A DNA stretch of 64,000 nucleotides from Cloacibacterium normanense (lineage in GTDB: Bacteria > Bacteroidota > Bacteroidia > Flavobacteriales > Weeksellaceae): contig NZ_CP034157.1 of the NCBI RefSeq assembly GCF_003860565.1, positions 2,604,001-2,668,000 on the forward strand, read 5' to 3'. The notes under the pieces are model-generated. The model saw only the letters and a list, made by a program, of their open reading frames with translations. It was not told where the DNA came from and searched no databases. The position numbers and the translations under genes were made by a program. Shown here piece by piece: positions 26,058 to 29,313 of the stretch (position 1 is the first letter of the stretch; each line of letters opens with the position of its first letter).

Positions 26058-26163
26058 ACCATTAAGTTCTTATTAAGGAATTAAGAAAATTAAGTTGAGA
26101 GAGAAAATCCCCTTAATGCACTTATTTCTTAATGATTTTCAAAAATTTTGAAAACTTAATGGT
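26058..26163. repeat. TTAAG/CTTAA inverted-arm repeat, copy R1
   Basis: Starts ACCATTAAG (26058) and ends CTTAATGGT (26163), so the ends are inverted. TTAAG occurs four times in the left arm and CTTAA four times in the right arm in slightly varied form, and the right arm contains the palindrome TTTTCAAAAATTTTGAAAA. The 106-bp copy is diverged from the three copies at 27.3-28.3 kb. It lies between the nucleotidyltransferase stop and the LOG start. Confidence 0.75.
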
Positions 26164-26917: not shown

Positions 26918-27328
26918 TTAATTAAGTTGAGGTTGTTCGTTATGCGTTACCGAAACATTTACCAATTCTGGATATTTTTCCTGCAAAAATTCTCCGAGTT
27001 TTATGGCGCAATACACACTTCTGTGTTGACCACCAGTACAACCAAAAGCTATTTGCAAATGGTCAAAACCACGAGCGATATAATCATTGATGGTAATGCT
27101 TACTAAGTTTTTGATGAGGTCTATAAATTGAGGCATTTCAGTTTTGGTTTCTAGAAATTCTTGAACGCCTTTATCGTTACCAGTTTGAGGTTTGTATTCT
27201 TCTATTCTTCCCGGATTGAGAATTCCTCTGCAATCGAATACAAAACCGCCGCCATTTCCGCTGTTGTCTACTGGTATTCCACCTTTTTTATAAGAAAAAC
27301 TGTAAATGTCTATGTTTAGTTTATTCAT
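26918..27328 (-). CDS. Free-standing RapZ C-terminal domain protein
   Basis: A 136-aa protein that matches only the C-terminal domain of RapZ, the E. coli adaptor that binds the GlmZ/GlmY RNAs and senses glucosamine-6-phosphate. Visible: SFSYKKGGIP (11-20), FVFDCRGILNPGR, and IAFGCTGGQHRSVYCA (near 93-108). The N-terminal P-loop ATPase is absent and the start is intact, so this is a domain-only protein rather than a truncation. It lies 30 nt upstream of the nucleotidyltransferase. The ATG at 27328 fits the family N-terminus. Its own first codons recur as vestiges in the repeat array just upstream. Confidence 0.85.
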   Translation of the reverse strand: MNKLNIDIYSFSYKKGGIPVDNSGNGGGFVFDCRGILNPGRIEEYKPQTGNDKGVQEFLETKTEMPQFIDLIKNLVSITINDYIARGFDHLQIAFGCTGGQHRSVYCAIKLGEFLQEKYPELVNVSVTHNEQPQLN

Positions 27329-27356
27329 TTTTTTAAAATTAAGATTTTTATTTTTT

Positions 27357-27499
27357 ACCATTAAGTATTTATTAAGGTATTAAGAAAATTAAGTTTTTTT
27401 GATAAATCAAAAAATATTTTTAAGTAATTGCAACTCCATTATTTTCACTTAATGTTCTTAATTTCTTAATTAATTTTGAAATTTCAAAATCTTAATGGT
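27357..27499. repeat. TTAAG/CTTAA inverted-arm repeat, copy R2 (empty)
   Basis: A 143-bp unit from ACCATTAAG to CTTAATGGT. The left arm has four TTAAG, the right arm four CTTAA, and the right arm contains the perfect palindrome TTTTGAAATTTCAAAA. The centre holds the short palindrome TTTTTGATAAATCAAAAA. It forms the first half of a 203-bp tandem unit (27357-27559) and abuts the rapZ leader. Confidence 0.9.
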
Positions 27500-27533
27500 T
27501 AATTCGTTTAGTTTCTATTTTAAGCTTATGCAT
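27492..27533 (-). pseudogene. Vestige of the rapZ start, copy 1
   Basis: A 13-codon frame reading MHKLKIETKRINH then stop, preceded by a leader very like that of the real gene (which starts MNKLNIDIYSF at 27328). It is best read as a duplicated 5' end of the RapZ-domain gene that has drifted. Too short to claim as a product. Confidence 0.5.
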
Positions 27534-27559
27534 TTTTAAAAAATAAGATTTTATTTTTA

Positions 27560-27702
27560 ACCATTAAGTATTTATTAAGGTTTTAAGAAAATTAAGTTTT
27601 TTTGATAAATCAAAAAATATTTTTAAGTAATTGCAACTCCATTATTTTCACTTAATGTTCTTAATTTCTTAATTAATTTTGAAATTTCAAAATCTTAATG
27701 GT
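27560..27702. repeat. TTAAG/CTTAA inverted-arm repeat, copy R3 (empty)
   Basis: A 143-bp unit almost identical to R2, starting exactly 203 bp after it; same arms, same internal palindromes. Confidence 0.9.
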
Positions 27703-27736
27703 TAATTCGTTTAGTTTCTATTTTAAGCTTATGCAT
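27695..27736 (-). pseudogene. Vestige of the rapZ start, copy 2
   Basis: Identical 13-codon frame to the copy at 27492-27533, 203 bp away, part of the second tandem unit. Confidence 0.5.
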
Positions 27737-27762
27737 TTTTAAAAAATAAGATTTTATTTTTA

Positions 27763-28288
27763 ACCATTAAGGTATTAAGATAATTAAGTTTTTTTGATAA
27801 ATCAAAAATCAATCAGGAAGCATGTTAAAATATTCATTAACAAAAGGCTTCATGGATTTTGTGATGTTTTTGGAGAAAAAATTTATTAATAATCCTTGTG
27901 GTTTTTTTAGAACTTTCATGTATGTTAGGAGTTGAGCTTCATGAATTGGTAATATTTCTTCAATTGCTTTTAATTCAACAACAATGGTGTCATTTACCAA
28001 CAAATCAACAACTAATTTAGTTTCCATAATTTTATTATCATAAATAATAGGAACAGTTAACTGTTGTTTCACGTCATAGCCATTTTTTTCTAACTCATAT
28101 TTTAAACAATCCTCATATATACTTTCTAATAAACCAGCGCCAAGTTCTTTATGAACTTTTATGGCAAGTCCTATTATTTCATATGATAATTGAGTTACTT
28201 TCTTTTTTGTCATTTTTAAAAACTTTAGTTTTTAAACTTAATATTCTTAATCTCTTAATTAATTTTGAAATTTCAAAATCTTAACGGT
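27763..28288. repeat. TTAAG/CTTAA repeat copy R4, split by a GxxExxY gene
   Basis: The left half (27763-27808) matches R2/R3 through TTTTTTTGATAAATCAAAA, then sequence changes at the GxxExxY stop codon. The right half resumes at 28237 (CTTAATATTC) and ends at 28288 (CTTAACGGT), again with the palindrome TTTTGAAATTTCAAAA. In R2/R3 the same place holds about 40 bp of non-coding sequence. The stop codon of the kinase gene upstream (28281-28283) lies inside the right end. Confidence 0.85.
27809..28213 (-). CDS. GxxExxY protein (PD-(D/E)XK-like, TIGR04256/PF13366)
   Basis: A 134-aa protein with the defining motif GAGLLESIYEDCLKYEL (near 25-41), then VKQQLTVPIIYDN, a VVDLLVNDTIVVELKAIEEI stretch (near 69-88) holding the Asp and the ELK of a PD-(D/E)XK nuclease-like core, and HEAQLLTYMK. 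The family is common in several copies per genome in Bacteroidota; its function is unknown. It sits precisely between two halves of a TTAAG repeat. No TAnnTTTG box lies directly upstream; a small hairpin (AAAAACT/AGTTTTT) is in its leader. It separates the AmgK-like kinase from the rest of its operon. Confidence 0.9.
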   Translation of the reverse strand: MTKKKVTQLSYEIIGLAIKVHKELGAGLLESIYEDCLKYELEKNGYDVKQQLTVPIIYDNKIMETKLVVDLLVNDTIVVELKAIEEILPIHEAQLLTYMKVLKKPQGLLINFFSKNITKSMKPFVNEYFNMLPD

Positions 28289-29306
28289 TTAGATCAATTA
28301 ATTTTTGAATTTTATTTTTAGTTTCTGTTGTGTTCAATTGTAGAATTAAGTTTTTTAGCTCTGGATATTCATTCATTTCGAGTTCCGTTTTGGTAAATTC
28401 TACTAAATTCTGAATTCCCTGTTCTAAACTTGTGATAAAATGCGGTTTTCTCTGAATAATTCCTCTAAAACCATACGCTCCTAAAACCTGAATGAAACGA
28501 ATCATTTTACAATATTTCAAAGATTTTTCTAATTCATTTCTTTGTTCTAAAGGATGAGAAGAGAAGTAATATTCCAGCATTTCATTTTTGAAATTTTCAG
28601 AAAAATTGGCTTTAGCTTGGAAGAGAAAAGAAACCACATCATAAAGAGCAGGTCCTTCCATTGCCGCTTGATAATCGATGAAAAAAACTTCATCTTGATC
28701 ATTTACCAAAATATTTCTTGCCTGAAAATCTCTTATCATCAAGGATTTTGGAGCTAGATTTTCTATTTTTTGTACAATTTTTTTGAACTCTTTCAGTAAA
28801 GTAGATTTATGATAAGGCAACTCTAAAATGTCTATCAAATAATTTTTGAAGTAGTATAAATCATGTGTAATTGGCAGTTCGTCATACTTTTCGTACTCGA
28901 AAGTTTTAGAAAAATCTATTTTGTTTTGGGTCTTTTCTTGAAGTTCAAATAAATGTTTTAATGTTTGTTTGACCAAAGATTTTACTCTTTCAGATTCACC
29001 TTCTAGAGCGATGATTTCAGAAAGTGTTTTTTCACCCAAAAATTCCTGAATATAAAGTTTTCTTTCTTCGTTGATTTTAAAAATCTGAGGCGTGTTCAAC
29101 TTTAAATCTGAAAAAACCTGTGTGAAATAGAAAAACGCTTCGTTTTCTAGAAGATTTTCGTTGTAAGTAATCACGTAAGTTTCATTCGAGGATTTTCCAA
29201 TGAAATTCATTCGCGCAGAACCACTTTGAGGCAATGCCAAAAATTCGGTTGCCTTTTCGCCTAAAAACTCTTCGAAAAAAAGTTGAGCTATTTCTTGATT
29301 TTTCAT
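28281..29306 (-). CDS. APH-type sugar kinase (AmgK-like)
   Basis: A 341-aa aminoglycoside-phosphotransferase-fold kinase. The catalytic loop reads MIRDFQARNILV (near 200-211, Asp base and Asn) and the metal site FFIDYQAAMEGP (near 219-230), the DYQ form found in AmgK, which phosphorylates MurNAc/GlcNAc at C1. With the RapZ-domain and MurU-like genes downstream on the same strand this suggests an anomeric amino-sugar kinase; resistance to aminoglycosides is unlikely. The ATG at 29306 is chosen over TTG 29312. A -7 box is 7 nt upstream. The repeat array and GxxExxY gene now separate it from its likely operon partners. Confidence 0.8.
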   Translation of the reverse strand: MKNQEIAQLFFEEFLGEKATEFLALPQSGSARMNFIGKSSNETYVITYNENLLENEAFFYFTQVFSDLKLNTPQIFKINEERKLYIQEFLGEKTLSEIIALEGESERVKSLVKQTLKHLFELQEKTQNKIDFSKTFEYEKYDELPITHDLYYFKNYLIDILELPYHKSTLLKEFKKIVQKIENLAPKSLMIRDFQARNILVNDQDEVFFIDYQAAMEGPALYDVVSFLFQAKANFSENFKNEMLEYYFSSHPLEQRNELEKSLKYCKMIRFIQVLGAYGFRGIIQRKPHFITSLEQGIQNLVEFTKTELEMNEYPELKNLILQLNTTETKNKIQKLIDLNR

Positions 29307-29313
29307 TACCAAG

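Follow-up and report, generated by a model that had tools for sequence, protein, structure and literature searches.

Background

In the RAYT/REP systems (REPtrons, REPINs), the gene lies between inverted copies of its repeat, the repeat co-evolves with the enzyme, and a single gene copy is accompanied by many gene-less copies, which are intergenic and also found in tandem clusters (PMC2817692, PMC3116915). A related arrangement is represented by the 23S rRNA intervening sequences, in which a small ORF encoding the S23/PF05635 four-helix-bundle protein is located inside inverted arms (PMC4990558).

The window analysed here, i.e. the whole 64,000-nt stretch of Cloacibacterium normanense DNA (contig NZ_CP034157.1, positions 2,604,001 to 2,668,000), harbours a GxxExxY gene inside a palindrome of TTAAG units, with gene-less copies of the palindrome nearby. 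The initial annotation had taken gene and repeat for one unit with a logic comparable to that of RAYT/REP pairs, and this reading is now strongly supported by the inverted flanks, the match between repeat unit and protein clade, the empty and occupied copies, the empty sites in sister species and the gene-dependent abundance of the repeats. As in the RAYT/REP systems, the GxxExxY gene has inverted copies of its repeat on either side, the repeat co-evolves with the enzyme, one coding copy is accompanied by several non-coding ones (in the TTAAG and L020 families of the window's genome, G000), and the palindromes are likewise intergenic and arranged in tandem clusters. However, RAYT is a Y1/HUH transposase (PF01797), whereas the protein encoded here is of the PD-(D/E)XK type (PF13366), and REPs are short and GTAG-tagged, whereas the repeat described here is a 100-200 bp palindrome composed of several iterated short units. 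Judged by this analogy, the GxxExxY system appears to work like a REPtron without being one.

The locus also resembles a MITE with its parent insertion sequence, since short, palindromic and non-autonomous copies accompany a single coding copy that has the same ends, but the coding copy carries no known transposase, and no target-site duplication was recognisable in comparison with the empty sites in genomes G005 and G006, where the flanks have diverged. With the 23S rRNA intervening sequences it shares the small ORF in inverted arms, and the intergenic PF05635 genes surveyed here possess iterated arms as well; the GxxExxY protein, however, is unrelated, the units are different, and the element is not located in rRNA.

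Structure of the TTAAG locus

The features of the locus are as follows (positions within the window; the two neighbouring genes are labelled from sequence reading).

26058..26163, no strand: R1, TTAAG palindrome without a gene, located at a neighbouring gene junction; fourth, diverged copy
26918..27361, minus strand: RapZ-C-like gene, bordering the array on its other side
27357..27499, no strand: R2, gene-less palindrome, ACCATTAAG...CTTAATGGT
27560..27702, no strand: R3, palindrome without a gene, located 203 bp further on than R2 and sharing 96% identity with it
27763-28288: R4 as a whole, with ends as in R2 and R3 and a complete ORF in the middle
27763..27808, no strand: R4 left arm, three TTAAG units and the conserved hairpin TTTTTTGATAAATCAAAAA adjoining the stop codon of the gene
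27809..28213, minus strand: GxxExxY gene in R4, PD-(D/E)XK family PF13366/TIGR04256, 134 aa, with intact E30-D70-E80xK82-Q94xxxY98
28237..28288, no strand: R4 right arm, CTTAA units and terminal CTTAACGGT
28281..29312, minus strand: phosphotransferase-like gene, the stop codon of which falls within the outermost TTAAG unit of R4

On direct reading, the coordinates, inverted ends and 203 bp spacing that had been given for R2-R4 were borne out. All three repeats of the initial annotation are real, but the diverged copy R1 had been omitted. Four TTAAG/CTTAA units per arm, as had been claimed, are present in R2 and R3, the innermost units of which are ∼54 bp apart, while the left arm of R4 contains three; the ends of R4 match those of R2 and R3 with the small correction that its right end reads CTTAACGGT. 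The middle of R4 is indeed occupied by a complete GxxExxY gene, the stop codon of which follows immediately after the conserved left half TTTTTTTGATAAATCAAAAA.

When folded as single-stranded DNA, R2, R3 and R1 are far more stable than their shuffles (z -5.3, -5.0 and -3.7, respectively), and the full TTAAG repeat is found in only few places in the 2.76-Mb genome G000 and in two close relatives; hence these palindromes represent more than chance occurrences.

The GxxExxY protein

GxxExxY is a widespread annotation which, to our knowledge, has no known role. The assignment of the window ORF to this family was confirmed by E-values of 4e-41 (TIGR04256) and 5e-39 (PF13366), and the ORF scores above both curated cut-offs (GxxExxY/PF13366/TIGR04256; 133.7 bits vs 22 and 140 bits vs 35). 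A Pfam scan of the protein returned PF13366 only and no PF01797, and membership in the RAYT family was rejected on this basis. The residues of the GxxExxY motif and of the PD-(D/E)XK core (G27, E30, Y33, D70, E80 and K82) are all present and 99-100% conserved among 260 proteins; the conservation of Q94 is also 99-100%, and that of Y98 is 95%. The protein is under strong purifying selection, with dN/dS values of 0.03-0.07 in diverged pairs (dS about 1).

The structure of the window protein was predicted with confidence (pLDDT 93), and it models as a Cas4/lambda-exonuclease-like, putatively nuclease-like fold. In the fold search with this model, the Cas4-type nuclease SSO0001 was the best solved match (E 6e-4), while lambda exonuclease, LHK-Exo and Hjc gave much weaker matches, and a tRNA-splicing endonuclease was found among the weak ones. 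No sequence relative of the protein was detected in the PDB. The predicted likeness to Cas4, RecB and lambda exonuclease extends to the motif order E...D...ExK...QxxxY, but the GxxExxY protein is smaller, and it has too few cysteines (one in the window protein, 2.1 on average in the 260 sequences) for the conserved four-cysteine Fe-S cluster of Cas4. No cas genes were noticed in its vicinity. Cas4 models match the window protein weakly (best E 5e-4).

The weak match to a tRNA-splicing endonuclease would suit an element acting at the RNA level, the arms being transcript hairpins involved in processing, termination or stability and the protein acting on RNA, as in the case of 23S rRNA intervening sequences. 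The position of R4 between co-oriented genes and the occurrence of PF05635 intervening-sequence proteins in iterated palindromes are in agreement with such a role. The best fold matches, however, are DNA nucleases, and the DNA palindromes vary yet keep their units in both arms, and we regard this explanation as improbable.

In three genomes of one genus, a RecQ helicase carries a GxxExxY domain fused in frame at its N-terminus (L388 1298-3949, L389 3289-5940, L390 3212-5863), and in each of them the fusion gene has a carB-like gene and a second conserved gene as its neighbours. None of 50,697 phage records contained a GxxExxY gene, no relative was found in the viral contigs searched, and the gene is rare on plasmids (8 of 72,556); the view of the gene as phage or plasmid cargo was rejected on these counts.

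Repeats flanking other GxxExxY genes

G000, which consists of one 2.76-Mb contig, encodes seven GxxExxY genes. By eye, all seven adjoin iterated short units, mostly as inverted arms on both sides, and the unit is different in each case:

Window gene: TTAAG
L020: CCGCAAAAGCGACAAAAG
L022: CACAGAG
L023: AACACATAAGTCACAT
L024: CCCACAGATTTCACAGA
L025: CGTGCAATTCGTG, on one side
L021: CCGCGAGAATCAGCG, on one side

A lack of such flanks at other GxxExxY genes of the same genome had been named as an outcome that would speak against the unit. The six other genes are indeed without TTAAG flanks, yet each adjoins an iterated repeat of its own. At L021, a 140-bp piece of the flank (1700-1840) is present in five identical copies in G000 and is probably an insertion sequence beside the GxxExxY gene.

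The broader gene sample combined genus, family and phylum surveys with a scan of one genome per species, which reached Acidobacteriota, Chloroflexota, Planctomycetota, Verrucomicrobiota, classes of Proteobacteria, Desulfobacterota, Nitrospirota and a Methanothrix MAG contig. The contig scan used a tighter alignment, the whole-family alignment being too diverse. In the flank test, 250 nt on each side were compared, and an inverted-repeat score of 15 or more was taken as strong. This threshold was reached by 51% of 258 GxxExxY genes and by none of 276 control ORFs, which were taken from these loci and from the window (Mann-Whitney p 1e-52); the outcome named as speaking against the unit did not appear. 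In a non-redundant set (<75% protein identity), the proportion was 50% of 175 genes vs 0% of shuffled flanks, and in phyla other than Bacteroidota/Ignavibacteria it rose to 76% of 34 genes, the arms of the betaproteobacterial L195 (TTCACCACAGAGACACAGAGACACAGAGA // TCTCTGTGTCTCTGTGTCTCTGTGGTGAA) being an example. A coincidental placement of one gene in one repeat was rejected by this test. In approximately one third of the GxxExxY genes, the arms are weak or undetectable by this test, whether through decay, because the arms lie beyond 250 nt, or because there are none. A null pairing the upstream and downstream flanks of different genes was dropped as too strict, since unrelated genes share units, and control ORFs and shuffles were used instead. 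A weak periodicity of the arms near 8 nt was left unused.

Relationship between repeat unit and protein clade

Between genomes, the arms become more alike as protein identity increases (Mantel rho 0.26, p 0.002), and a gene shares more arm similarity with its best protein homologue in another genome (0.235) than with the remaining GxxExxY genes there (0.099; Wilcoxon p 4e-18). Mapped onto the protein tree, the unit class shows 27 changes vs 56-65 in 200 shuffles, or 20 vs at least 38 in the Bacteroidota survey alone, the classes having been defined by hand after the data were seen; the arm-similarity test is independent of these classes. The TTAAG and CACATAA classes require one change each. 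TTAAG arms accompany ten of the ten proteins at least 65% identical to that of the window, and the next clade has CACATAG.

In G035, G041, G050 and G052, the gene downstream of the TTAAG element begins, by eye, like the RapZ-C-like gene of the window, and the element appears to occupy the same junction. The flanks of the TTAAG copies in G014, G024 and G025 differ by eye from those of the window. Since the flanking DNA outside the units has diverged among TTAAG copies, the units themselves look conserved.

Repeat abundance in genomes with and without the gene

Among 60 genomes of the family, CRCARAG pairs average 15.1 (median 7) in the 29 with a GxxExxY gene vs 1.2 (median 1) in the 31 without it (p 1e-6), and among 80 genomes of the phylum Bacteroidota the means are 27.3 vs 1.9 (p 4e-9), although genomes within one family or phylum are related and the p-values, here as in the other surveys, overstate their independence. 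PF05635 copy number does not predict CRCARAG pairs in genomes without GxxExxY (rho 0.00), so that the link between CRCARAG and GxxExxY is specific. In the case of TTAAG triples the link is weaker and moderate (p 1.6e-4 vs all other genomes, 0.01 vs genomes with another GxxExxY). The initial annotation had also held that wide occurrence of the repeat in gene-less genomes would count against the unit. Repeats are rare in such genomes, but orphan TTAAG palindromes do exist, one in G006 and at approximately three places in G003.

A rival explanation is that another enzyme moves the palindromes and that the gene merely landed in one of them. In its favour, the gene occupies a single copy of each family, and no movement was observed. 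However, the type of unit follows the protein phylogeny in different genera and phyla, the abundance of the repeats goes with the presence of the gene, and purifying selection on the protein is strong; this explanation is already disfavoured and has little probability left.

Empty and occupied copies

The L020 family comprises ∼16 empty copies in G000, with arms joined by a short loop, and in the occupied copy the ORF is situated exactly at the apex, where the empty copies have this loop. Copies of the repeats are dispersed at many unlinked gene junctions. The TTAAG array has 2 units in G001 (1 empty), 3 in G000 (2 empty) and 5 in G002 (4 empty), with one occupied unit in each genome. The empty units retain the small hairpin found after the stop codon of the gene and therefore look like internal-deletion derivatives.

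At the site of the array in G005 and G006, the RapZ-C-like and phosphotransferase-like genes are directly joined and overlap (ATGGACAATAA), with nothing between them. In the window, as read by eye, the stop codon of the phosphotransferase-like gene is supplied by the inserted palindrome (28270-28290). The R1 site is empty in G005 and G006 as well, the absence in G005 being a single clean block, and R1 is also absent from the G003 and G004 junctions, as judged by gap sizes and, for G004, by alignment. The simplest reading of this distribution is that R1 was gained in the G000-G002 lineage.

Since the gene is single-copy in each repeat family of G000, the gene-bearing unit itself does not appear to spread. 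A homing element, in which the nuclease would cut gene-less copies and copy its gene into them, could account for the predicted nuclease-like fold and for a gene inside a repeat whose other copies are empty. Nevertheless, the L020 and TTAAG families of G000 have just one occupied copy each, despite ∼16 empty L020 copies and several empty TTAAG copies, and sites without the element lack the palindrome altogether. Cognate copies thus stay unconverted beside the gene, unlike those of a homing endonuclease; homing into empty copies was rejected because so many of them persist, and it is the faintest of prospects.

Proposed role of the GxxExxY protein

In one alternative, the putative nuclease would serve maintenance without mobility, trimming or resolving the cruciforms and hairpins of the palindromes or shielding the chromosome from them, and the spread of the repeats would be due to recombination and to slippage during replication. 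The tandem arrays differ by whole units, as slippage would give, Hjc resolvase and lambda exonuclease are among the matches of the fold search, and the GxxExxY domain is fused to RecQ in one genus. On the other hand, the copies at many unlinked junctions and R1 as a separate insertion need a means of moving, and a distinct unit for each protein clade argues for sequence-specific recognition; maintenance alone seems rather unlikely, if worth keeping in mind.

The explanation that we consider probable is that R4 is the coding copy of a palindromic element, that R1-R3 are its gene-less, non-autonomous copies, and that GxxExxY is a small nuclease of the PD-(D/E)XK type, dedicated to the repeat that surrounds it. 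Within the inverted arms, the protein would recognise the iterated units, which are TTAAG here, probably in the form of a hairpin or cruciform at a replication fork. By cutting or processing this structure, it would disseminate copies between genes or maintain them there. It would thereby do for these palindromes what the RAYT transposase does for REPs. The computed basis of this proposal comprises the anatomy, the match between unit and clade, the gene-dependent abundance, the presence and absence of elements at orthologous sites, the purifying selection and the nuclease-like predicted fold.

More tentatively, and with some reservation, the PD-(D/E)XK nuclease and, separately, the four-helix-bundle protein PF05635 may be dedicated enzymes of a large unrecognised class of mobile repeats, in which each enzyme clade reads its own unit, in many phyla. 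If real, such a class would explain intergenic repeats of the CACAGAG type. Intergenic palindromes of iterated units are widespread in Bacteroidota and also occur commonly outside this phylum, and we found no enzyme assigned to them. The link between GxxExxY and the repeats gives both a testable function. The pairing would, moreover, represent a second answer, with an enzyme unrelated to RAYT, to the RAYT/REP problem of the origin and persistence of bacterial palindromic repeats, and the natural series of enzyme clades with matching repeats offers material for recognition studies. The framing of each branch of the gene family by a repeat motif of its own, in genomes rich in empty copies and in many bacterial groups, suggests a partnership, not described before, of an enzyme with the repeats that it spreads or maintains. 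In the literature searched for GxxExxY and PF13366/TIGR04256/IPR026350, no paper was found that connects the family to repeats.

Additional observations

Genes of the 23S-rRNA intervening-sequence family PF05635 (L318-L347) are also located between inverted iterated repeats, 46% of 28 having a score of at least 15, and their flanks carry other unit types, e.g. AGTAATTGGTATCTAGTAATTGG. In related species, the same gene junction was found to hold different GxxExxY elements or an unrelated ORF (L024, L043, L048, L080, L363). A gene-less tandem array of CACAGAG palindromes (G000:C1:1892941-1893519; L393; L394) consists of approximately 5 units in G000, 3 in G001 and 1 in G006.
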